A stretch of DNA of 10,596 nt. Origin: Paludibacteraceae bacterium. Its GTDB lineage: Bacteria > Bacteroidota > Bacteroidia > Bacteroidales > Paludibacteraceae. Within the stretch, counting starts at the first letter, position 1; every line of letters starts with the position of its first letter. Of the stretch, positions 1 to 10,596 are shown one piece after another. The notes beneath the pieces are model-generated. The model made no database searches. It was not told the DNA's origin and saw nothing but the letters and a program-made list of their open reading frames with translations. The stretch lies in the NCBI GenBank assembly GCA_017402895.1, contig JAFPLG010000120.1, positions 1-10,596 of the forward strand. The letters are read 5' to 3'. A program made the position numbers and the translations under genes.

Positions 1-485
1 ACTCCCAGGGATTCCCTGTCGGCAACTATACCGACCTTTATGCCGTAGGTGGCGTGTTCTATTTCCTGCTCACAGGTCAGAAACCGCCTGCCGCACCTGA
101 CCGCGCTATCCGTGACCAACTGATACCCCCTATTGCAATCCGTCAGGATGTAACACCGGCAGCGAATTATACAATCCTCAAGGCTCTCAATACAGACTCT
201 AAGGCGCGCTACCAGACTGCGCAGCAGCTGCTCTGCGACTTGCTGGGCGGAGACCCCGGTCCCGGTCCTGGTCCTGGTCCTGGTCATGATCCTGACCCTG
301 ACCCCACATCTACGGTGTTGGGCTTTATCCTCGCCTTTATCCCGTTCCTGTGTATAATAGGTCTGATTCTATCTGTTCAAGGCGTCAAGAAGAATCTGAA
401 ATACGAATTGGCAGTAGCAGGAACAGTCATCTCTTCGATGATGACATTTGCTTCGTTTATCATATTTATTAACGCTGTTAGTTAG
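1..485 (+). CDS. Ser/Thr protein kinase, C-terminal part, with two-TM tail (5' end outside window)
   Basis: This is the 3' end of a Hanks-type Ser/Thr kinase gene. The first complete codon is at position 3, and the frame is open to the window edge, so the true start lies upstream. The visible part begins just after the activation segment (GNYTDLYAVGG, the subdomain IX region) and covers the C-lobe up to the RYQTAQQLLCDLLGG end that all the kinases here share. A Gly-Pro linker follows (255-305), then two hydrophobic segments separated by a short basic loop (VKKNLKYE). The loop leads into ELAVAG, a layout that resembles DUF4190-type two-helix membrane domains; that match is an inference. The product would be a cytoplasmic kinase anchored to the inner membrane with almost no outer domain. 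Just before GNYTD it reads GFPV, where the other four have an S/T/G-rich stretch ending KKG, so it is the most divergent paralogue. The next gene begins 20 bases downstream. Confidence 0.88.
   Translation, partial: SQGFPVGNYTDLYAVGGVFYFLLTGQKPPAAPDRAIRDQLIPPIAIRQDVTPAANYTILKALNTDSKARYQTAQQLLCDLLGGDPGPGPGPGPGHDPDPDPTSTVLGFILAFIPFLCIIGLILSVQGVKKNLKYELAVAGTVISSMMTFASFIIFINAVS
255..305 (+). repeat. In-frame hexanucleotide repeat encoding a Gly-Pro/Asp-Pro linker
   Basis: About eight tandem 6-base units run through this stretch: CCYGGT several times, then CATGAT and CCTGAC variants. They encode alternating Pro-Gly, then His-Asp and Pro-Asp. The tract joins the kinase C-lobe to the two-TM tail. 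The unit is a multiple of three, so copy-number change by replication slippage would alter linker length without breaking the frame. Confidence 0.8.
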
Positions 486-505
486 TAAACACACATCTTT
501 TTACA

Positions 506-1936
506 ATGGCTTCACAAGAAGGTTCATTAGCAATTCATACTATTCTATCCGACCGCTATTCTATCGAACGTGTTATCGGTGAAGGCGGTTTTGGTATCAC
601 CTACGAGGCTCGTCATATCCAGATGGGAACCCATGTGGCCATCAAGGAGTTCTTTATCGCTGGCAAGTGTATTCGTCAGGCGGACGGCCAGACGGTGGCT
701 TTCCAGGGTATCAAACCCGAACTGTTTGAGAAGTATCGCAAGCGTTTCCACGATGAGGCACGCACCCTTTTCAAACTCAACAACCCCCACGTTGTGCACG
801 TTCACGATATCTTTGATGCGAACGGCACAACCTATATCGTGATGGACTTCGTGACGGGACGCACCCTCCAGGAGATTGTCGATGAGCGAGGCCCTCTGCC
901 CTATGAGGAAGCCGTCAACTATATCGCTCAGCTCTGCGAGGCCGTAGAGCATATCCATGCCAATCATATCCTCCATCGGGATATCAAACCCGAGAATATC
1001 ATCATCACGCCGCAAAGCAATGTGGTGCTGATCGATTTTGGCTCAGCTCGTAGCTTTGTCCACGACCAGGAGCAACGTCATACCGCAATGATTACGATGG
1101 GCTATGCACCTATCGAACAATATACATCCACAAGCAAAAAGGGTAACTATACCGACGTATATGCCGTAGGCGGTACGTTCTATTTCATCCTCACCGGACG
1201 CAAGCCCGAGGCGGCCACCGACCGTGTGCTCAACGACGAACTCGTTCCGCCGCGCGAGATCAATCCTAAGATTTCCGAGTCGGCCAACTATACCATCATG
1301 AAGGCGCTCAAGGTAAAACCCGAACTCCGCTACCAGAACGTATCGGACCTGATGAGCGACCTGCTGGGTGGCGTCACCGAGTCGCTGGATGAGCCTTCTA
1401 TCTCGGCCGAAGTGATGCCTGTCCCCGTATCGAATAAGAAGCCGAAAATGCTCGTCTGGATCCTGGTGGCAGCTGTCGTGATAATTGGTGTGGGTGTAGC
1501 TATCGGATTTAGTTTGTCCCACAAAGAGGTACCGGATAATGTGGGTGTCGAATATGCGGCCAAATATAATGGTATCTGTTCTAAGTGCGACGAGCATCTT
1601 CGTATGGTCAACGACGATCGCTTCTTCCTCAATTTTATTGAGATAGCACGAGACCTCCGCGAGATGCAAACCTACGAGGCGCAGCAGCCCTTCACGGATT
1701 TTGGACTCGAACCGCAGTCCGGAACCTACATGAATCAGTATTGCGAGAAGATTGCTGAAACCAAGGCTGTCCTGCTCGAAAAGCAAAAAGAACAACGCGA
1801 GGTCTTTGACTCGCCGGATAATATAGCTCTTGCCGATATTAATCGAAAACTCGAGATGCTGGATAAACTTCTTGAGCAGGCCCGGACAGGAGATGCTTCT
1901 AATATCATATTGCCGGAGGAGATGCGAAAAGAATAA
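506..1936 (+). CDS. Membrane-anchored Ser/Thr protein kinase with Cys-containing outer domain
   Basis: This 476-residue Hanks-type kinase has every catalytic element visible: glycine loop GEGGFG (25-30), ATP lysine K47 in VAIK, helix-C glutamate E84, HRDIKPEN with catalytic D159 and N164, and DFG with D177. The activation loop carries T193 and T197 and leads into GYAPIEQY, the P-x-E form of the APE motif. About 30 residues are inserted between beta-3 and helix C (KCIRQ type, with C55). A Ser/Pro-rich linker is followed by one TM helix (about 315-337) and a mostly helical, charged 140-residue outer domain that I do not recognise. That domain contains a CxxC pair (C358, C361) and C413. ATG 506 is chosen because it gives the same short N-terminus as the other kinases; no Shine-Dalgarno sequence is present. 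Its stop codon directly abuts the next gene, so coupled translation is likely. It probably phosphorylates cytoplasmic targets in response to an envelope signal. Confidence 0.93.
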   Translation: MASQEGSLAIHTILSDRYSIERVIGEGGFGITYEARHIQMGTHVAIKEFFIAGKCIRQADGQTVAFQGIKPELFEKYRKRFHDEARTLFKLNNPHVVHVHDIFDANGTTYIVMDFVTGRTLQEIVDERGPLPYEEAVNYIAQLCEAVEHIHANHILHRDIKPENIIITPQSNVVLIDFGSARSFVHDQEQRHTAMITMGYAPIEQYTSTSKKGNYTDVYAVGGTFYFILTGRKPEAATDRVLNDELVPPREINPKISESANYTIMKALKVKPELRYQNVSDLMSDLLGGVTESLDEPSISAEVMPVPVSNKKPKMLVWILVAAVVIIGVGVAIGFSLSHKEVPDNVGVEYAAKYNGICSKCDEHLRMVNDDRFFLNFIEIARDLREMQTYEAQQPFTDFGLEPQSGTYMNQYCEKIAETKAVLLEKQKEQREVFDSPDNIALADINRKLEMLDKLLEQARTGDASNIILPEEMRKE

Positions 1937-4006
1937 ATGATGAAGTGGCGTGTCCTAATAGTATTTTTATTGGTCTCTTTTCTCGCGTTTGCACAAGAGT
2001 CTCTCAACTATCAGAATGCGGAGAACCTCGTCAAGAAGGGACAGTATGAGACGGCATGGAAATGCCTGGGGCTGGCTATAAAAAACGATAATGCCAATTA
2101 TGCCAAGTACCCGCTCTACAAGGAGTGCCAGGCGGTACTCCAGGCCTATAACAGCGCCAATGCCGAACTCCAGAAGAAAAATAGCGATGCGCAGAAAGCT
2201 CTAAAAACCATCAACGACATCTATGCCAAGTATCCGCGGGCTAAGAAATTCGACCCGCTGTCGAATATATACCAGCGATGCAAAAGCCAGTTAGCTAAGG
2301 CGCAAAGTGCCGCTACTCAGAAAACGGAACAGGCAAGCAAATCGAAGACCCAGGTCCAAAAAGAAACTTATTCCCCTCCTGTGCCGCAGGAATATCTTCG
2401 GGCAGATCGAAGTTATATCCAGGATTACGGAAAGGAGACGCAACAAGTCGCTATTCAGAGTACTTCTGACTGGTACGTCCAGGAGTACCCGGACTGGATC
2501 GAGTGCTGGCGCGAGAAAAACAATACGCTCAGTTTCCTTTGCGAGAAGAATCTGGCGCGTTCCGTTCGTGAGGGCACTATCGTATTAGCCAATTACCAGA
2601 ACAAACAACTGACTATCCACGTCCGTCAGAACATGGACGCCGAATATTGGCGCGACCGTGTTTATACCGGCGAACTCTACTGGGGAGATGGAATCTATGT
2701 GGGTGAGATCATGAACGAAAAACCGCACGGAACAGGTACGCTAACCTACGACAAATACGCCGAATCCGGAGTCGTCTCGTACCAGGGCCAGTGGAAAGAA
2801 GGCTTGAAGTCCGGCTATGGCGTGATGACCTGGGCCAGCGGCGACCGATACGAGGGAGAGTTTTCCGGCGGCATGAAAGACGGTCAAGGCACCTACTACT
2901 ATGCCGATGGTGATCGCTATGAAGGCTCGTATGAGAATGACGTTATCTCCGGAACGGGCACCTATTACTATTCCGACGGCCGTAAGTATATCGGCCAGTG
3001 GCGTGACGGCGATATGTCGGGCCAGGGAACCTTCTATTTCGCTAACGGAGATCGCTACGAAGGCGCGTTCGCCGAGGATTATCGCAACGGCGCGGGCACC
3101 TATTACTATGCCGATGGTAAGATCTTCGAAGGAAATTGGAAGTACGGTATGCGCACCGGTCAGGGAGTACTCCGTTGGCCGGATGGTGACCGCTATGAGG
3201 GAGATTTCCTCAATGACTATATGCATGGCCGCGGCACCTACTTCTTCGCCAATGGCGATCGCTATGAAGGTCAGTGGGAGTACAACGAGATGTCTGGCCA
3301 AGGCACTCTATACATGAAGAGTGGCGCTCGCTATGAAGGCAGTTTCGAAAACAACAAGAAGCGTGGCCAAGGCACCTATCTATATGCCAATGGCAACCGA
3401 TATGTCGGAAATTGGGAGAACGGTGTAAGATCCGGTCACGGAACCTATATGTTGAAGAACGGTGACCGTTACGATGGCAATTTCCTCAACGACCAGCGCA
3501 ATGGGCAAGGCACCTACACCTACGCCAACGGCAACCGATATGTCGGCAATTGGGAAGATGGCAAAAAGTCCGGCTATGGCGTGATGACTATTGCCGGTGG
3601 TAATACATATGAGGGCTACTTCCTCAACGACCAGCGCAATGGTCAGGGCACGTATAGATACGCCGACGGCACCATCTATATCGGAAATTGGGAGGATGGC
3701 AAAATGTCCGGCCAGGGAAAGATGACGTGGCCCAATGGTTCTACGTACGAGGGCGAGTTCCTGGACGACCAGAAACATGGCCAGGGAACCTACACCTATA
3801 GCGACGGAACCAAGCACGTCAGCTCGTGGAAGAAAGGCATACAATCCGGGGAAACAACTATCTATTGGCCGGATGGAGACCGTGAGACAGGCCGCTATCA
3901 GAAGGGCAAGAAAGATGGCAAATGGAAACGCATCTGTGCCGATGGCCGCATCCTCTATGCCACCTATTCCGACGGTGAACTTACCCAGAAATGGCATCAA
4001 GAATAA
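1937..4006 (+). CDS. Secreted MORN-repeat protein with TPR-like and BACON-like N-terminal regions
   Basis: The 689-residue product begins with a signal peptide: Lys/Arg near the start, a hydrophobic run to residue 17, and a likely cut after AFA at residue 19. There is no lipobox Cys. Residues about 22-120 are helical and TPR-like (AENLVKKGQYETAWKCL). Residues about 168-231 resemble a BACON beta-sandwich: STSDW, PDW, R-x-G-x-I and a closing V-R-Q. From residue 254 to the end there is a run of about 18 MORN repeats, mostly exactly 23 residues, with the pattern Y-x-G-x-W/F-x-x-G/D-x-x-x-G-x-G. The last two decay towards YwqK-like form (KDGKWKR). ATG 1937 abuts the upstream stop; ATG 1940 would serve equally well and keeps the signal peptide. 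I infer a periplasmic or outer-surface scaffold, perhaps binding glycan, lipid or the outer domains of the kinases. It is not an enzyme by any motif I can see. Confidence 0.92.
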   Translation: MMKWRVLIVFLLVSFLAFAQESLNYQNAENLVKKGQYETAWKCLGLAIKNDNANYAKYPLYKECQAVLQAYNSANAELQKKNSDAQKALKTINDIYAKYPRAKKFDPLSNIYQRCKSQLAKAQSAATQKTEQASKSKTQVQKETYSPPVPQEYLRADRSYIQDYGKETQQVAIQSTSDWYVQEYPDWIECWREKNNTLSFLCEKNLARSVREGTIVLANYQNKQLTIHVRQNMDAEYWRDRVYTGELYWGDGIYVGEIMNEKPHGTGTLTYDKYAESGVVSYQGQWKEGLKSGYGVMTWASGDRYEGEFSGGMKDGQGTYYYADGDRYEGSYENDVISGTGTYYYSDGRKYIGQWRDGDMSGQGTFYFANGDRYEGAFAEDYRNGAGTYYYADGKIFEGNWKYGMRTGQGVLRWPDGDRYEGDFLNDYMHGRGTYFFANGDRYEGQWEYNEMSGQGTLYMKSGARYEGSFENNKKRGQGTYLYANGNRYVGNWENGVRSGHGTYMLKNGDRYDGNFLNDQRNGQGTYTYANGNRYVGNWEDGKKSGYGVMTIAGGNTYEGYFLNDQRNGQGTYRYADGTIYIGNWEDGKMSGQGKMTWPNGSTYEGEFLDDQKHGQGTYTYSDGTKHVSSWKKGIQSGETTIYWPDGDRETGRYQKGKKDGKWKRICADGRILYATYSDGELTQKWHQE
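2696..3952 (+). repeat. MORN repeat array, 69-base units with 138-base higher-order period
   Basis: From 2780 to 3952 there are 17 consecutive 69-base units with no insertion, preceded by one looser unit at 2696. From about the fifth unit, W-type units (Y-x-G-N/Q-W-x-x-G, then SG) alternate with F-type units (Y-E-G-x-F-x-x-D/N, then NG and GTY), giving a 46-residue double unit. DNA conservation is strongest in the later units: a 23-base block beginning TTCCTCAACGACC recurs at 3482 and 3620, exactly 138 bases apart. This pattern points to growth by duplication of unit pairs. Confidence 0.88.
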
Positions 4007-4026
4007 TATAAATACAAATATATACT

Positions 4027-5070
4027 ATGGAACCCAAAACAGCACTTGCAGTCAATACAATCCTTGCGGGCCGCTACCAGATTGAGCGCATCATCGGCCA
4101 GGGAGGCTTTGGCATCACCTATGCTGCGCGTCATGTCCAACTCGGTACCCTATATGCAATCAAGGAGTTCTTTATCTCCGGCAAGTGCATCCGCCAACAA
4201 GATGGCTGGACCGTCACTTTCCAGGATTTCAAGCCCGAACTCTTTGAAAAGTATCGCCAGCGCTTCCGCGAAGAAGCACTCACTCTCTCTAAACTGGATA
4301 ACCCGCACGTAGTGCGTGTTCATGATATATTCGACGAGAATGGTACCACCTATTTTGTGATGGACTTCGTGGCCGGCGAGACGCTCCAGAAGAAGGTGGA
4401 AAGCCATGGCGCATTGCCCTATGATGTGGCAGTCAACTATATGGCGCAACTGTGCGAGGCTATAGAGCATATCCATAGCCATAATATCCTCCATCGTGAT
4501 ATCAAACCCGACAATATCATCATCACCAAAAACAACAATGTGATGCTGATCGACTTCGGTTCGGCCCGTAGTTTTGTCCACGACCAGGAGCAACGCCACA
4601 CGGCCATGCTCACCGTAGGCTATGCACCAATCGAGCAATATACCGCAACCAGCAAGAAGGGCAACTATACCGACCTCTACGCCGTAGGCGGCACGTTCTA
4701 TTTCATCCTCACCGGACGCAAACCTATTGCTGCGGCCGACCGCATGCTCCACGACGAACTGGTCGAGCCACGTGCCTTCAATCCAGATATACCGGCTGCG
4801 GCCAGCGCTACTATCATGCGGGCACTCAACCTTCTGCCCGAGAATCGCTACCAGACGGTCGAGGAATTCCAGCGTGACTTGCTGGGCGGGGAAGCTGTCG
4901 AGCAAGAACGTACGGTTCGGAAACCGAAACCTGCGGTTCCTACGGCCGACAAGACGCAACTCGGACCTACGCCTACCGGCGATGCACCTCGCTTCTGCCG
5001 CCATTGCGGCGCACCGCTCCGCCCGGGTGCAAACTTCTGTAATAAATGTGGAGCAAAGATAATAAAGTAA
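4027..5070 (+). CDS. Soluble Ser/Thr protein kinase with C-terminal zinc ribbon
   Basis: This 347-residue Hanks-type kinase has no membrane segment, so it should be cytoplasmic. Catalytic elements are complete: G-loop GQGGFG (24-29), K46, helix-C E83, HRDIKPDN with D158, DFG with D176, and GYAPIEQY after activation-loop T192 and T197. The beta-3/helix-C insert is of the KCIRQ type, as in the kinase at 506. After the C-lobe (ends DLLGG, about 288) comes a short Pro/Thr/Lys-rich linker that includes DKTQLGPTPTG. The linker leads to a four-cysteine zinc ribbon: CRHCG (C324, C327) and CNKCG (C338, C341). The ribbon probably mediates protein or nucleic-acid contact. T310 in the linker is a plausible phosphothreonine docking site for the FHA proteins of the same operon; that is inference. 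The start gives MEPKTALAVNTIL, matching its paralogues. The leader is AT-rich without a Shine-Dalgarno sequence, and the next gene starts 14 bases after the stop. Confidence 0.93.
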   Translation: MEPKTALAVNTILAGRYQIERIIGQGGFGITYAARHVQLGTLYAIKEFFISGKCIRQQDGWTVTFQDFKPELFEKYRQRFREEALTLSKLDNPHVVRVHDIFDENGTTYFVMDFVAGETLQKKVESHGALPYDVAVNYMAQLCEAIEHIHSHNILHRDIKPDNIIITKNNNVMLIDFGSARSFVHDQEQRHTAMLTVGYAPIEQYTATSKKGNYTDLYAVGGTFYFILTGRKPIAAADRMLHDELVEPRAFNPDIPAAASATIMRALNLLPENRYQTVEEFQRDLLGGEAVEQERTVRKPKPAVPTADKTQLGPTPTGDAPRFCRHCGAPLRPGANFCNKCGAKIIK

Positions 5071-5084
5071 GAAAACACTAACCT

Positions 5085-6740
5085 ATGGCTCAAAAAAAAA
5101 ACGCATTACCTATCAATACAATCCTCGCCGGACGCTACCAGATTGAGCGTGTCATCGGCGAAGGCGGATTTGGTATCACCTACTATGCCCGCCATCTCCA
5201 GCTTGGTACCTATGTCGCTATCAAGGAGTTTTTCCTCTCTACCTATTGCCAACGCCGCAAAAACGGGAAGGTCACTTTCGTAGAGATCACACCGGATAAA
5301 TACGAGAAGCATCTCAAGCGTTTCCAGGACGAGGCTCGTACACTCTGCCGCCTCAACAACCCCCATGTCGTTTCGGTTCGTGATGTCTTCAACGAGAACG
5401 ATACCTCCTATATTGTTATGGACTTTGTGGCCGGCGAGACACTCCAACACAAGATCGAACGCGAGGGCGCTATGCCCTATGATGCTGCGGTCAACTATAT
5501 GGCCCAACTCTGCGAAGCCGTTGAGCATATCCATAGCCACCGTATCCTCCATCGCGATATCAAGCCCGAGAATATCATCATCACCCCGAGCAACAATGTC
5601 GTCCTGATTGATTTTGGCTCGGCGCGTAGTTTCGTCCATGACCAGGAACAGCGCCATACGGCTATGCTTACCGTCGGTTATGCACCTATCGAGCAATATA
5701 CCGCCACCGGCAAGAAGGGCAACTATACCGACCTCTATGCCGTAGGCGGTACGTTCTATTTCATCCTCACTGGCAAGAAACCTATCCCGGCTGCCGATCG
5801 TATTGTCAACGACGAACTCGTCGAGCCGCGTGCCATCAATCCCAATATCCCGGAGGCAGCTAACCGCACGATCATGAAGGCGCTCAATGTTAAGCCCGAA
5901 GACCGCTACCAGACGGTCCAAGAGTTCCGGGCCGACTTGCTGGGCATGAAAGCCCCGGATCCTATGGTAGATCCGCCTTCGCCTACCACCACACCCTACA
6001 CGCCGGATTCTACATCTTCCTCTTCTTCCGGATCGTTGGTATGGCTGTGGATACTCATCCCGGTCATCATTGTCGGCGCCGTCATACTGGCAGCCATAAT
6101 AGGCCACTCCCAATCCCGTTCCTATGAGAATCCCGATTCCTCTTCGTACGTAGAACCAGGCGAAGTGGAGGAGACCCGCGTCCTCCCCGACGGCTATCCT
6201 GCTATTATGAGCGAGCGCCAACTCGAGGAGTCCGACCTCGTTGATATGAGCGATTGGGACCTCAAGGTGATGCGCAATAGTGTGTATGCCCTCTATGGAT
6301 TCCGCTTTGGAAAAGACGACCTGAAAAACTATTTCTCCGGCTTCTCTTGGTACAATCCTACCTATACGGACCAGAACGTGGTTTTCGACCGGATGACCTC
6401 TATCGAGCAGTACAACGTCAAGTTCGTCCGCGAGTACGAGAAGAAACGCAAGCAAGAGGCCGAAGAGGAAGCTATGTACGATGAGTATGATGAATACGAA
6501 GACGAAGGTGGCTATTATGGCTACAACGACCCCATGCGTCGTGGCGTGATCTATGATAGCGATGGATGGTCCAATCTGCGAGAGACTCCCTCAACGAGTG
6601 CGGATATCGTCGGCCAGTTGTCCAACGGAGATGAGATCCTGTATATCCCCATGGAGTCCGGTTGGTGCGAGGTCTACGATTGGGATTCCCGCGAGTTTAT
6701 CGGCTATGTCCACGGAAGTCGCATCTCATCCCTTGATTAA
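5085..6740 (+). CDS. Transmembrane Ser/Thr protein kinase with outer YARHG and SH3 domains
   Basis: This 551-residue kinase has a complete catalytic domain: GEGGFG (25-30), K47, E83, HRDIKPEN with D158, DFG with D176, and GYAPIEQY. Its beta-3/helix-C insert is the YCQRRKNGKVT type, shared with the kinase at 8662. A linker rich in Thr, Ser and Pro (about 296-316) precedes one TM helix (about 318-340). Outside, residues about 370-452 match the YARHG domain pattern: SERQLEESDL, then W-D-L-x-x-M-R-N-x-x-Y-A, FSGFSWYNP, and I-E-Q-Y-N. An acidic, Tyr-rich hinge follows (about 458-482), then a bacterial SH3 domain (about 486-547) with DGWSNLRE at its start and W-C-E-V-Y and G-Y-V-H near its end. Both outer modules are typically found in envelope proteins and SH3b often contacts peptidoglycan, so an envelope sensor is the best reading. 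It lies 14 bases after the zinc-ribbon kinase. Confidence 0.94.
   Translation: MAQKKNALPINTILAGRYQIERVIGEGGFGITYYARHLQLGTYVAIKEFFLSTYCQRRKNGKVTFVEITPDKYEKHLKRFQDEARTLCRLNNPHVVSVRDVFNENDTSYIVMDFVAGETLQHKIEREGAMPYDAAVNYMAQLCEAVEHIHSHRILHRDIKPENIIITPSNNVVLIDFGSARSFVHDQEQRHTAMLTVGYAPIEQYTATGKKGNYTDLYAVGGTFYFILTGKKPIPAADRIVNDELVEPRAINPNIPEAANRTIMKALNVKPEDRYQTVQEFRADLLGMKAPDPMVDPPSPTTTPYTPDSTSSSSSGSLVWLWILIPVIIVGAVILAAIIGHSQSRSYENPDSSSYVEPGEVEETRVLPDGYPAIMSERQLEESDLVDMSDWDLKVMRNSVYALYGFRFGKDDLKNYFSGFSWYNPTYTDQNVVFDRMTSIEQYNVKFVREYEKKRKQEAEEEAMYDEYDEYEDEGGYYGYNDPMRRGVIYDSDGWSNLRETPSTSADIVGQLSNGDEILYIPMESGWCEVYDWDSREFIGYVHGSRISSLD
5721..5767 (+). repeat. 47-base perfect direct repeat with 9295-9341 (kinase C-lobe)
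   Basis: These 47 bases, encoding the N-Y-T-D-L-Y-A-V-G-G-T-F-Y-F-I-L region, are identical to 9295-9341 in the kinase at 8662. Near matches lie at about 1145 (kinase at 506) and 4665 (kinase at 4027), and a more divergent one near 24 in the first partial kinase. It is the strongest local part of the kinase paralogy that runs through the window, and a plausible substrate for homologous recombination or gene conversion. Confidence 0.85.
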
Positions 6741-6760
6741 TAACTAATACACCCAATACC

Positions 6761-7246
6761 ATGAGAGTAATCACCATAGGCCGTGCGCCGCAAAATGACA
6801 TCGTCATCAACGACCCCCGAGTTGGTCGTTCGCATCTGCAGATTATTGAGCACGATAACGGCCGTTTCAGCATTGTCGACCTCAATAGCACCAATGGCAC
6901 CTACGTCAATGGTCAGCGTATCCGAGGCGAAGAGATTCTTATGCTCGGAGATACCGTCACGTTAGGCAATACAGAGTTGCCATGGATGGAGTATCTCTGC
7001 TTGCCCGATGAGCAAGAGATGGAAGCAGTCGAAAAGAAGACATCTGGCCTTATATGGTCTGTGATAGCCGGCATCCTTGTTCTGATAATCGCTCTGGCGA
7101 TACATTTCCTCAAGCCGTCGAACAAGTATTCCGACGGCGGCTATATCCCTGCTCCCGGAACCTCCAATCTCCCCGGGCAGCGTGAACATGCGAAAGCTGT
7201 GTTCGAGTTGCCCTCAACGATTAGTTTTCAGGAATGTATAAGTTAG
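6761..7246 (+). CDS. Short FHA-domain membrane protein with altered phosphate-binding motif
   Basis: The 161-residue product begins directly with an FHA domain (about 1-78): I-T-I-G-R with R8, then RVGRSH with H25, then DLNSTNGTYVNG with T44 and N45. FHA domains bind phosphothreonine peptides. Here the usual SxxH serine position is G22 (G-R-S-H), so one phosphate contact is missing. A TM helix (about 96-117) follows a short acidic/basic stretch, placing the FHA domain in the cytoplasm. The outer tail is only about 44 residues, Pro/Gly-rich and unrecognised, ending in a lone Cys. It is a tandem paralogue of the gene at 7271, with closely matching DNA around the NGTYVNG motif. It may be a degenerate copy or a regulator that competes with the larger protein. 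ATG 6761 fits the FHA beginning; no Shine-Dalgarno sequence is seen. The gaps are 20 bases before and 24 after. Confidence 0.9.
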   Translation: MRVITIGRAPQNDIVINDPRVGRSHLQIIEHDNGRFSIVDLNSTNGTYVNGQRIRGEEILMLGDTVTLGNTELPWMEYLCLPDEQEMEAVEKKTSGLIWSVIAGILVLIIALAIHFLKPSNKYSDGGYIPAPGTSNLPGQREHAKAVFELPSTISFQECIS

Positions 7247-7270
7247 TAATTTTTTTGATTTAATTCTATT

Positions 7271-8632
7271 ATGAGAATAATTACCGTAGGACGTGATGCC
7301 GGAAACAATGTGGTTGTTCGTGACCCGAAAGTTAGCAACCGGCATCTGCAACTCAAACAAGATGATTCCGGTCGTTGTAGTATCGTCGACCTGAATAGTT
7401 CCAATGGCACCTACGTCAATGGTCGCCGTATCCAAGGCGAAGTCCCTCTCCGTCCGGGAGATCAGGTGCGTATAGGCAATACTATTTTGCCTTGGATGCA
7501 ATATTTCCAGAATATTCGTGAAGGCGGCATGAGTGCTTGGATGATAGTGCTGATTGTTGTTGGCGGATTGGTCGGACTGGTAGTGACTGTGGTTATTGCA
7601 CTCAGCCTGTTGAGAATGAATCGTCCGTCGGGGGGTGCTATTCGACACGATAAGGACCTCCAACTTGTGGATGTTCCTCAGCCGCGTGATATTATGGTTG
7701 CGCCGGGTCAGACACTCGAAGACGCCTTTAGTGCATACTATCCTTCGGAGTCGATGGACAAGAGTCGCAATATAGGCGGTGCTAAGTTCTTGGCCGAGCA
7801 AGCTGCAGATAAGCAGGATGTTACGTTCTCTCGCAACTATACCAACCGCTCTGTGCAAGTGCATGTTTGCCCGTTGCATGAGATGTACCTCGTTCCCGAT
7901 TGCAACCCGCAATCCGCTGTCGCTATGATCCGCAAGAATGAGATTGAGATAACGTCCGTCGAGGTTCATAGTATCGAGCACACGTCTATGGTTGTCCGCA
8001 ATCTAACACAGCAGACGCTCACGATTCTTATCCCGCAGGGACTTATATTCGAGATTGTGGACAATGGCGAGCAAAACCTGGTTGTCTCAGAGGAAGTCCT
8101 TATTACTCTATCAGCCTACGAGAGCCAATCGATTAGTTTGAGAACTTATTGCGCAGCACACCATCGTAGTTCTCCTTCCGGTCCGGCACGCGTCACGCCG
8201 TATGTCCTATATGCGCCCGCATCAATCTATCAGAGTCAGTCGAGCGTATGGCAGTATATCGAATCACGCTCTACCCATCGCGTGGTATTCTATGCCGGTA
8301 GCGGAGGAACATGTATCAATGTGCCTTCTGTTGGTTATGTCGGATATACCGAGCGTAGTTCGAGTATGATGCACGTGTCCACGTATAGCGAGATTACTAC
8401 CAGCAGTGTTGATAGTTGCGTGGTATATCTTAACGACTATCAGTATCGTTGTATACAGCAGAAAGTCGAATCACTCCAGCAAGTCTCGCGGTCGTTCTTT
8501 AGCCGCTATGATGGCACGGAATTTATGATCGATGTGGCAGAGGCAGGAGGAATCTACTATGGTCAGAGTACATCCTTCTCTAGCTCGATGCAGTTCGTCC
8601 GTGAGTTGAAGTCCTATAGTGAACACCGTTAA
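7271..8632 (+). CDS. FHA-domain membrane protein with large Cys-containing outer domain
   Basis: The 453-residue product has an N-terminal cytoplasmic FHA domain (about 1-78) with the full binding set: G7-R8, S22-N23-R24-H25 and S44-N45-G46-T47. It should therefore read phosphothreonine made by the neighbouring kinases. One TM helix follows (about 89-114), then an outer domain of about 340 residues. That domain contains a beta-rich block (about 225-296): S-V-E-V at the start, N-L-T-Q-Q-T-L-T-I-L-I-P-Q-G-L-I-F-E, then Q-N-L-V-V, and a closing Y-C. The form N-x-T ... I-P-x-G-x-x-F ... C recurs in predicted secreted beta-sandwich domains, but I cannot name the family with confidence. Six outer cysteines (200, 211, 294, 348, 383, 394) could pair as disulfides. 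The C-terminal third is Ser/Thr/Tyr-rich. It probably passes kinase signals to the envelope, or recruits phosphorylated partners to an outer structure. Confidence 0.9.
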   Translation: MRIITVGRDAGNNVVVRDPKVSNRHLQLKQDDSGRCSIVDLNSSNGTYVNGRRIQGEVPLRPGDQVRIGNTILPWMQYFQNIREGGMSAWMIVLIVVGGLVGLVVTVVIALSLLRMNRPSGGAIRHDKDLQLVDVPQPRDIMVAPGQTLEDAFSAYYPSESMDKSRNIGGAKFLAEQAADKQDVTFSRNYTNRSVQVHVCPLHEMYLVPDCNPQSAVAMIRKNEIEITSVEVHSIEHTSMVVRNLTQQTLTILIPQGLIFEIVDNGEQNLVVSEEVLITLSAYESQSISLRTYCAAHHRSSPSGPARVTPYVLYAPASIYQSQSSVWQYIESRSTHRVVFYAGSGGTCINVPSVGYVGYTERSSSMMHVSTYSEITTSSVDSCVVYLNDYQYRCIQQKVESLQQVSRSFFSRYDGTEFMIDVAEAGGIYYGQSTSFSSSMQFVRELKSYSEHR

Positions 8633-8661
8633 GAATAGATAATTTAGAAGCAGTATATTGT

Positions 8662-10239
8662 ATGGCAGTTAATAATGCATTAAAAACCGGTACTATCCTA
8701 TTTGATCACTACCAGATCGAACGCGTCATCGGCGAAGGTGGATTTGGTATTACCTATTATGCCCGCCACCTCCAACTCGGCAACTATGTGGCTATCAAGG
8801 AGTTCTTTCTTTCTAATTATTGCAAGCGGCGCAAAAATGGTAAAGTCACATACCAAGAGATCACTCCCGAGAAATTCGAGAAGTACCGCAAGCGTTTTCA
8901 GGATGAAGCACGAACCCTATGCAAACTGAGCAATCCGCATGTGGTGCATGTCCACGATATCTTCGACGAGAACGATACCACCTATATCGTCATGGACTAT
9001 ATTGCCGGTGAGACGCTTCAGAAGAAAGTAGAACGCGAAGGTGCTCTCCCTTACGACGAAGCGGTCAACTACATGGCACAACTATGCGAGGCAGTCGAGC
9101 ATATCCATGCCAATCATATCCTCCATCGCGATATCAAACCCGATAATATCATTATTACCCCGAGCAACAATGTCGTCCTCATCGACTTCGGCTCGGCACG
9201 TGGCTTTGTGCATGACAAGGAGCAGAAACATACGGCTATGCTTACCATGGGCTATGCCCCTATCGAGCAATATACGGTTTCTAGCAAGAAGGGTAACTAT
9301 ACCGACCTCTATGCCGTAGGCGGTACGTTCTATTTCATCCTTACCGGCCAGAAACCCATCCCCGCTGCCGACCGTATGCTCAATGACGAACTCCAACCCC
9401 CTCATGCTATCAATCCTTCTATTCCAGAGGTCGCTAGCCGCACAATCATGAAGGCGCTCAATGTCAAACCCGAAGAGCGTTACCAGACCGTTGCTGAGTT
9501 CCAGAATGACCTGCTCGGAAAAACAGAGTCTTTTTCCGCAACTCCCCAATCGTCATCCCAGACTCCTACACCAACTCAGCAGCCTGCTCTGTCTAAAATG
9601 CCTGCATGGGTTGGGATCCTCATTGGAATTCTCATTGTCATCGGTCTTACTGTCGCGCTATCTATTCAACTGTCCTCTTCCGTCCAGGAACCCCAGCCGG
9701 CGCAAGTTGATACGGTGGTGGTCAAAGAGGAATCTCAACCGGAACCTGCTCCACAGCCATCTCTGATCACTCAGGGTATGGTCTACGACGTAGTCGTGGC
9801 CTACTATGAGGATTATGACGACTATAATCAGAAGCTATCCGATATCCGGAGTCAAGGATATCCCGGAGCATTCCTGGTGTCTTTTGAGCAGAGCGTCGGT
9901 GGTGCTCGCGTCATAGCTCTTCGTACTCGCTCCAAGTCGGAAGCCGAGCGCACGCAGCAGGCCCTCAAGCGATTGGGTGAGAAGGCGTGGCTGTGGCATC
10001 ACGATTGCGACGACCTAAGCAATGCGCCGGAACTGGGACATAAGCGCGGAAGAATCCACGACAAAGACGGATGGTGCAATGTGCGTGCAGGTCAGTCAAA
10101 TAATGCTGAAATAATAGGTATCCTCTACGAGGGAGAGGAAATCCTTTTCGAACGCACAAATTCCAATTGGTATGAGATTTACGATCCCGATTCAGAGGAA
10201 TTCATTGGATATGTCCACAAAACCCGAATAAGACAATAA
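8662..10239 (+). CDS. Transmembrane Ser/Thr protein kinase with outer SPOR-like and SH3 domains
   Basis: This 525-residue kinase has a complete catalytic domain: GEGGFG (24-29), K46, E82, HRDIKPDN with D157, DFG with D175, and GYAPIEQY. Its beta-3/helix-C insert is YCKRRKNGKVT. A Ser/Thr/Pro/Gln linker (about 290-310) leads to one TM helix (about 314-336) and a Pro/Glu-rich outer hinge (about 342-367). Residues about 374-447 look like a SPOR domain: Y-D-V-V-V-A-Y-Y, a helix with L-S-D-I-R-S-Q-G-Y-P, then V-I-A-L-R-T-R-S, A-E-R-T-Q-Q-A-L, and a final A-W-L-W. SPOR domains bind denuded peptidoglycan, often at division sites. A terminal SH3 domain (about 461-523) is clearly related to that of the kinase at 5085: DGWCNVR, EEILF, DSEEFIGYVH. 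ATG 8662 matches the paralogues' N-terminus. It is the last kinase in the window, 29 bases after the FHA gene and followed by an AT-rich gap. Confidence 0.93.
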   Translation: MAVNNALKTGTILFDHYQIERVIGEGGFGITYYARHLQLGNYVAIKEFFLSNYCKRRKNGKVTYQEITPEKFEKYRKRFQDEARTLCKLSNPHVVHVHDIFDENDTTYIVMDYIAGETLQKKVEREGALPYDEAVNYMAQLCEAVEHIHANHILHRDIKPDNIIITPSNNVVLIDFGSARGFVHDKEQKHTAMLTMGYAPIEQYTVSSKKGNYTDLYAVGGTFYFILTGQKPIPAADRMLNDELQPPHAINPSIPEVASRTIMKALNVKPEERYQTVAEFQNDLLGKTESFSATPQSSSQTPTPTQQPALSKMPAWVGILIGILIVIGLTVALSIQLSSSVQEPQPAQVDTVVVKEESQPEPAPQPSLITQGMVYDVVVAYYEDYDDYNQKLSDIRSQGYPGAFLVSFEQSVGGARVIALRTRSKSEAERTQQALKRLGEKAWLWHHDCDDLSNAPELGHKRGRIHDKDGWCNVRAGQSNNAEIIGILYEGEEILFERTNSNWYEIYDPDSEEFIGYVHKTRIRQ

Positions 10240-10301: not shown

Positions 10302-10596
10302 ATGGAAAAATTCACAAAAGCACGTTTCCAAGCACGTCTGATTTCATTCTGCTACGCGATCCTGGAAACACGTCAGTCCGATTTTGATCCGGAGAAGATC
10401 AAAAACCAGGCGCCTGTTCAGACTATTATGCAGGCGCTTGAGTACGCCAACAACGAGGAAACGAACGTCATTCGCAGCCTCCCGGATGTGGCTGGCAGAA
10501 AACCTACGCAACATGATCAGTTCAGCCATTTGATAGGTGCGCTCGAGGGCAAAAACGTTGTTTATCAGCGTATGCCGCCCAGCCTCCTGCTGACCG
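10302..10596 (+). CDS. Hypothetical protein, N-terminal part (3' end outside window)
   Basis: An open frame starts at ATG 10302 (MEKFTKARFQARLISFCYAI) and continues for 98 codons to the window edge without a stop. The visible part has no signal peptide and no clear membrane helix. It looks helical at first (ETRQSDFDPEKIKNQAPVQT, then ALEYANNEE) and then more mixed, ending near GKNVVYQRMPPSLLLT. I do not recognise the family. It differs from the genes before it in having no kinase or FHA module and in being set off by a 62-base AT-rich gap, so it may start a separate unit or be a more loosely linked member. The base composition and codon style look like those of the neighbours. The start is supported by the AT-rich leader and the absence of any other long frame on either strand here. 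Confidence 0.7.
   Translation, partial: MEKFTKARFQARLISFCYAILETRQSDFDPEKIKNQAPVQTIMQALEYANNEETNVIRSLPDVAGRKPTQHDQFSHLIGALEGKNVVYQRMPPSLLLT

Follow-up and report, generated by a model that had tools for sequence, protein, structure and literature searches.

The window analysed here is a stretch of 10,596 nucleotides that makes up an entire contig (JAFPLG010000120.1, here C43) of the Paludibacteraceae metagenome-assembled genome (MAG) GCA_017402895.1. It carries an array of Hanks-type protein kinase genes interleaved with genes of FHA proteins, and is interpreted, with a probability of about 0.7, as a membrane phosphothreonine signalling hub with envelope-sensing kinases. The locus is real and beyond chance, and its general mechanism is well supported. 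The MAG comprises 1.25 Mb in 185 contigs and is 59% complete, and both flanks of the window lie beyond reach. Eight genes, located between positions 3 and 10239, all on the plus strand and separated by 20, 0, 20, 14, 20, 24 and 29 bases, encode four complete and one truncated kinase, two FHA proteins with a transmembrane (TM) segment and one TPR-BACON-MORN protein:

3–485, plus strand: K0, 3' part of a kinase gene cut at the contig start, with a GP-repeat linker and two hydrophobic segments (NCBIfam PknB_PASTA_kin, 6.4e-09, residues 5–80).
506–1936, plus strand: K1, Hanks-type kinase with one TM segment and a CxxC tail of no known family (PF00069, 7.5e-43).
1937–4006, plus strand: TPR-BACON-MORN protein, probably secreted (MORN, 1.8e-97, 15 stretches; BACON at 157–236; N-terminal hydrophobic segment).
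4027–5070, plus strand: K2, kinase with a C-terminal zinc ribbon, lacking a TM segment (PF00069, 1.3e-42; PF13240, 1.3e-08).
5085–6740, plus strand: K3, kinase with a TM segment, YARHG and SH3 (PF00069, 3e-43; PF13308, 2.6e-17; PF08239, 1.9e-09).
6761–7246, plus strand: FHA1, FHA-TM protein with Gly at the usual FHA Ser position (PF00498, 4.5e-21).
7271–8632, plus strand: FHA2, FHA-TM protein with a tail of about 340 residues (PF00498, 1.5e-20).
8662–10239, plus strand: K4, kinase with a TM segment, SPOR-like part and SH3 (PF00069, 2e-42; SPOR, 0.0037, below cut-off; SH3_3, 3.7e-06).

The first-pass annotation of this DNA had described at least five paralogous kinases in one array, each with a near-constant catalytic domain and a different C-terminal module, together with two FHA-TM proteins and a secreted TPR/BACON/MORN protein. 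The array is borne out by the four complete kinases, encoded on one strand with gaps of 0–29 bases, but the fifth, K0, is represented in the window by its 3' part only: some 80 C-terminal residues of its kinase domain are kept, as judged by alignment to the paralogues, and it has no Pfam match. The four complete kinases match the Pfam Pkinase family with E values of 3e-43 to 2e-42. The P-loop, the Lys of VAIK/YAIK, the motifs HRDxKxxN and DFG and the segment GYAPIEQY are kept in all four, and the activation segment of each contains Thr residues. The term 'near-constant' is fair for catalytic domains that are not identical, with 70–81% identity, whereas the aligned tails share 18–30%. Different modules are indeed present in the tails: the zinc ribbon of K2 and the YARHG and SH3 of K3 exceed the Pfam cut-offs, while the SPOR of K4 (PF05036, nearly full length) remains under its own (18 bits against 21). 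The SH3 of K4 exceeds the cut-off (27.4 vs 27) only with the tail scanned alone, and no Pfam match was found in the tail of K1. A single hydrophobic segment, the predicted TM segment, is located behind a Thr/Pro/Ser linker in K1, K3 and K4 and is absent from K2. Both FHA-TM proteins were confirmed. In the TPR-BACON-MORN protein, the 15 MORN stretches stand, as does the BACON, which Pfam leaves under the cut-off (E 0.0029) and which was detected with a profile from relatives that excluded the window sequence (E 2e-10, one-sequence search); its TPR score is not independent, because the seeds of the TPR profile included the window's own protein, and probable secretion is suggested by one N-terminal hydrophobic segment.

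The origin of the array was traced in a tree of 67 catalytic domains, drawn from 148 found, with L067–L119 (mostly Bacillota and others, at most 42% identity) excluded and duplicates removed. The four complete window kinases form one clade with support of 100/100, and the TM kinase of locus L045 is the sister of this clade (96/95). Accordingly, the array grew by duplication and the tails were replaced. Four-fold silent sites differ by 49–62% among the window kinases while the catalytic residues stay as similar as stated above, which indicates that the copies are old and that their catalytic part is held by selection. Such age would suit redundant paralogues without joint function, the tails of which drift freely. 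This explanation is very improbable, since the active sites are intact in all four complete kinases and recognisable domains have been swapped rather than decayed. A replacement of recent date is also seen in genome G013, the kinase pair of which (L040, 3530–5749 and 10383–12524) has catalytic domains 94% identical, with a silent difference of 15%, and unrelated tails, one of them FGE-type; judged from the sequences, this pair is the product of a recent domain exchange. The zinc-ribbon kinase of L053 groups with its own TM neighbour kinase and the YARHG kinase of L056 falls outside the window-kinase clade, which shows that zinc-ribbon and YARHG tails were gained more than once.

For comparison with other loci, genome contigs were scanned for kinases and the best 80 loci were kept; the best 22 of these (L045–L066, Bacteroidota, from 19 assemblies, three of which gave two loci each) were annotated with custom profiles. 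Each of the 22 stretches contains at most two kinases; the L053 locus has four once the upstream stretch L215 is added, and in Bacillota loci as many as three kinases follow one another. A five-kinase array like that of the window was absent from every other locus examined.

The genes of the window belong to a kit, the usual order of which is zinc-ribbon-FHA, VWA-TM-FHA, PP2C-TM, FHA-TM, soluble kinase, FHA-TM and TM kinase. Kinase, FHA, PP2C and VWA genes are all present inside the stretch in seven of the 22 Bacteroidota loci. Among the other 58 of the best 80 loci (three also Bacteroidota), 33 have PP2C along with the kinase and the full set of four parts is found in four; a kit with similar parts occurs in Bacillota too. 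Conservation of the gene set in related genomes had been fixed as a test beforehand, and the core set was found together in relatives. The first-pass annotation is also supported in its view of a phosphothreonine signalling array with different tails. Its proposal of a distinct signalling system has to be replaced: the window represents a locally expanded form of the kinase/PP2C/FHA/VWA kit of these other bacteria.

Searching 393 genomes of the order with a VWA-FHA bait gave 74 matches at E 0.001, many through the FHA part alone, and 13 (own included) that reach E 1e-26 or lower and cover the VWA half at least in part, those in G642 and G582 beginning only at model positions 222 and 215. Weaker VWA-only matches are also present, for example, in G521, G336, G484 and G625. 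In the 12 other genomes with VWA-FHA, belonging to seven genera, PP2C is adjacent in nine and a same-strand kinase is present in eight; the stretch of L159 stops too early to judge the kit, and that of L128 stops after PP2C. In the genus of the window, the VWA-FHA protein was found in two of 121 genomes, own included; the kit is therefore patchy. A patchy distribution would also be expected of an anti-phage or conflict system, in which kinases sense attack and phosphorylate host proteins, and the kinase domains give matches to the PADLOC models PD-T4-6 and mad6. The PADLOC matches are limited to this domain, which is also matched by the general Pfam model, and no cut-off is given for them; they were set aside as similarity common to kinases. 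In the window, neither a toxin or nuclease domain (Pfam) nor a PD-T4-6/MADS partner was found, and K3, K4 and the MORN protein suggest a link to the envelope. A conflict function of the locus is thus improbable.

Part of the kit is located elsewhere in the MAG. On contig C83, genes of VWA-FHA and zinc-ribbon-FHA proteins lie side by side at one contig end, and gene order in relatives makes it plausible that C83 adjoins the window. No overlap between the ends of the two contigs was found, and four C83 gene products (rpsO-like, pspC-like and two more) have no tblastn match in the stretches of relatives. Of the kit, a TM kinase of the subfamily and an adjoining FHA-TM protein are encoded in the window, and zinc-ribbon-FHA and VWA-TM-FHA proteins on C83. 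The first 60 bases of C83 (L043) show a loss of reading frame in the VWA-FHA gene close to the end of the contig, possibly the result of faulty assembly. Other variants of the kit were also observed. A PP2C with InlB B-type repeats behind the TM segment is encoded in L045 (4456–6687), so the phosphatase tail varies too. A triple-FHA ABC transporter is encoded immediately upstream of the kit in L160 (5103–7970), and an FHA protein of similar length, outside the Pfam scan, was found at the matching position in L161.

Among the FHA proteins of the window, FHA2 retains the usual Arg, Ser and His positions, which we take to be those that contact phosphothreonine. Its full-length relatives are two proteins at 59 and 57% and one 99% copy. 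A fold model of FHA2, built from a three-sequence alignment, was discarded (mean predicted local distance difference test score, pLDDT, 36.9).

The gene of the TPR-BACON-MORN protein begins on the base right after the stop codon of K1. A similar arrangement recurs in six of the 22 Bacteroidota loci (L046, L049, L051, L052, L055 and L063), where a TPR-BACON gene lies directly 3' of the TM kinase gene on the same strand, with spacing from a 4-base overlap up to about 200 bases. The Pfam BACON match is over the cut-off in L046 and L051 and under it in L049 and L052; L055 and L063 were outside the Pfam scan. The C-terminal part of these proteins differs, being represented by PEGA in L046 and L049 and by MORN in the window. 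The combination of TPR-like, BACON and MORN parts is also present in the database protein P0195. A MORN repeat past the TM segment was found in the L045 kinase (23 bits vs the cut-off of 22.5), and a kinase domain is present in 14 of 120 among the MORN-protein relatives listed. In L121, a protein with five BACON domains is encoded immediately before the kinase. The kinase of L218, a locus from the window's genus, contains a BACON-like stretch (PF13004, 22.6 bits vs the cut-off of 25) and adjoins a protein with five BACON domains; one of these five shares 40% identity over 72 residues with the BACON of the window. No paper on the kinase/TPR-BACON pair was found in a literature search that did not use the word BACON.

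In some relatives, the kit is linked to genes of a type VII-like secretion system. Proteins of 1103–1112 residues combining FHA and FtsK parts are encoded in three relatives, and the best solved relatives of the one in L051 are entry 4nh0, which we take to be EccC of Thermomonospora, EccC5 and YukB. Behind the FHA-FtsK gene, proteins of 91–97 residues have WXG100 as the top or equal-top Pfam match, under the cut-off in all three cases, and the small protein of L046 passes the WXG100 cut-off (34.3 vs 27.3). The kit, an EccC-like ATPase gene and WXG100-like genes are contiguous, with the main genes on one strand, in five related loci (L046, L051, L053/L215, L059 and L062). In L218, genes of FHA, PP2C, the BACON kinase, TPR-BACON, FHA-EccC and a WXG100-like protein follow in a row, and in L213, from the genome of L058, the ATPase gene is followed by those of PP2C and a kinase. 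These loci would fit a reading in which the window forms one half, sensory and regulatory, of a type VII-like (EccC/WXG100) locus, the kinases and PP2C setting a phosphorylation that is read by FHA domains, including that of the ATPase, and that switches export. The subtypes T7SSc–j, as listed in PMC11217815, also include kinase, phosphatase, vWA and FHA parts.

The distribution of the EccC-like ATPase is consistent with such a link for the kit. It is present in eight of 16 genomes reached by kinase similarity, a set that is related rather than independent, includes three profile seeds and excludes the genomes of L047, L063 and L066. With two candidates scored per genome, it was found in at least 5 of 393 genomes of the order and at least 9 of 357 other genomes of the family; with all candidates scored, it was found in 1 of 36 order genomes, and rescoring of 51 genomes in this way agreed with the two-candidate counts. 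The Fisher test of 8/16 against 5/393 gives p 8e-10 and ignores both relatedness and the two-candidate scoring limit.

For the window itself, the evidence points the other way. Window-type kinases (E below 1e-100) were found in four of 358 family genomes, the own MAG and three others (G000, G255, G013 and G083), and none of the four contains an EccC-like ATPase with all candidates scored (G255 = G652, G083 = G659); in the own MAG, at its level of completeness, the four candidates scored were FHA matches only. The ATPase is likewise absent from the L045 genome and from the 12 order genomes with VWA-FHA. No WXG100-like gene was detected by the custom profile among open reading frames of at least 60 residues in the window. 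The kinase of L218 is distant, 25–30% identical to its best matches in this analysis, and the small protein of this locus has no Pfam WXG100 match. In the stretches of five order genomes with EccC-like ATPases, two of which are short contigs, no kinase was found by custom profiles. The type VII link was therefore downgraded for the window, and a role as the sensory half of such a locus is possible and rather unlikely. Equally tentative is the broader proposal that Bacteroidales have a phospho-regulated type VII-like system, in which an FHA-EccC ATPase and WXG100 export would be governed by swappable kinases together with FHA readers, PP2C and a partner of TPR-BACON/MORN type; the window would be its multi-kinase sensory half.

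EccC-like FtsK ATPases of Bacteroidales were found in the kit loci L202, L203, L204, L215 and L046 and in 17 others (L188–L192, L212–L214 and L217–L225); among the latter, a WXG100-like open reading frame is present in 12 (custom profile) and a kinase in three (L213, L218 and L223). Possibly, these loci represent diderm type VII-like systems. In L220 (7935–9815), a MORN protein gene directly precedes the ATPase gene.

Among the closest described systems are the type VII subtypes of Bacillota and Actinomycetota, which, according to the relevant passages of PMC11217815, include kinase, phosphatase, vWA and FHA parts and for which phosphorylation control is raised. The T7SSc–T7SSj kit (TsxD kinase, TsxF PPM phosphatase, TscE vWA, TseJ FHA) resembles the present one in its TM kinase with an N-terminal catalytic domain and variable outer part, and phosphatase, vWA and FHA proteins are clustered together in relatives of the window; a kinase with a TM segment and an intact active site is present in the window itself. 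In contrast, that kit is reported in those passages in Bacillota and Actinomycetota only, whereas here vWA carries TM and FHA parts, and several kinases and a TPR-BACON partner are present. The window also lacks genes of the ATPase (TsxC) and WXG100 (TsxA) types, no ATPase having been found in the 59% complete MAG. A footnote of 2012 in PMC3482391 mentions, for bacteroidetes, a distinct ATPase that occurs with WXG proteins. In the comparison with the mobile type VII system that has a YueA-like three-domain ATPase, assigned there to bacteroidetes and others, one match to a looser pattern was also found at 412; no kinase/PP2C/FHA kit is mentioned in the passages on this system, which is not in the window. 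Actinobacterial GAP1-N2 systems (passages of PMC7159879) share a zinc-ribbon or TM kinase with PP2C and vWA, but vWA is standalone there and a vWA-TM-FHA fusion here, and the window has no GTPase part. PASTA kinases PknB/Stk1 share the catalytic domain, single TM segment and C-terminal sensor, but no PASTA repeats were found by Pfam in the window kinases, and their scores with the NCBIfam PASTA-kinase model, 197–214, fall short of the cut-off (450). Also considered was threonine phosphorylation as a means of controlling type VI or type IX secretion: a kinase and an FHA protein can control a type VI system (work cited in PMC11217815), and in L045 a protein with a type IX sorting tail is encoded roughly 3 kb downstream of the kinase; for the window, such control is quite improbable. 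Thus, the kit idea and type VII-like genes in Bacteroidota are already known, each by itself, whereas the combination of the two in Bacteroidales, the partner of TPR-BACON type and the expansion to five kinases were not found in print in the literature searched.

The preferred reading of the locus is that of a hub for phosphothreonine signalling at the membrane. Its four or five sensor kinases, local duplicates of one kinase with different tails, would read different states of the envelope or cell. The TPR-BACON-MORN protein, made with K1, would most likely serve this kinase as a partner in the envelope or as the subunit that binds the ligand. Activated kinases may phosphorylate themselves and neighbouring proteins, and probably also the Thr/Pro-rich linker between the catalytic domain and the TM segment. 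FHA2, perhaps FHA1, and the VWA-FHA and zinc-ribbon-FHA proteins of C83 would recognise the phosphothreonines and assemble a complex at the membrane, which a PP2C phosphatase, known from relatives, would reset. The complex would switch a putative membrane machine; envelope integrity, surface assembly and contact sensing are conceivable roles.

Several observations weigh against this reading. FHA1 carries Gly where FHA domains usually have Ser, and the SPOR of K4 and the BACON of the MORN protein are under the Pfam cut-offs. The six TPR-BACON proteins of the relatives were chosen by eye and Pfam and were themselves profile seeds, and only four of the six pass the N-terminal hydrophobicity cut-off. 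In the L218 kinase, the BACON stretch (287–368) precedes the single TM segment (375–393) and is thus on the catalytic side of it, a position at odds with an outer role of BACON. PP2C is absent from the window and was not found in the MAG with one query, the MAG being 59% complete. In L162 and L163, the VWA-FHA gene has no adjoining kit, and a kinase of L163 is located 9 kb away on the opposite strand.

At the end of the contig, an open frame (10302–10596) begins 62 bases past K4 and has no family match in Pfam or NCBIfam. Promoter-like and terminator-like sites in the window are no more numerous than in shuffled sequences, and the Bacteroidetes-type promoter pattern has no match in it.

Kinase-based signalling in Bacteroidota has, to our knowledge, been little studied. 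The locus shows how a sensor repertoire can grow, through in-place duplication of a kinase, the copies of which acquire different tails, and the same tail types, zinc ribbon and YARHG, recur in kinases from distinct clades. The pairing of a TM kinase with a TPR-BACON protein, seen repeatedly, provides a concrete partner hypothesis, and the EccC-linked loci make control of a diderm type VII-like system by threonine phosphorylation testable.

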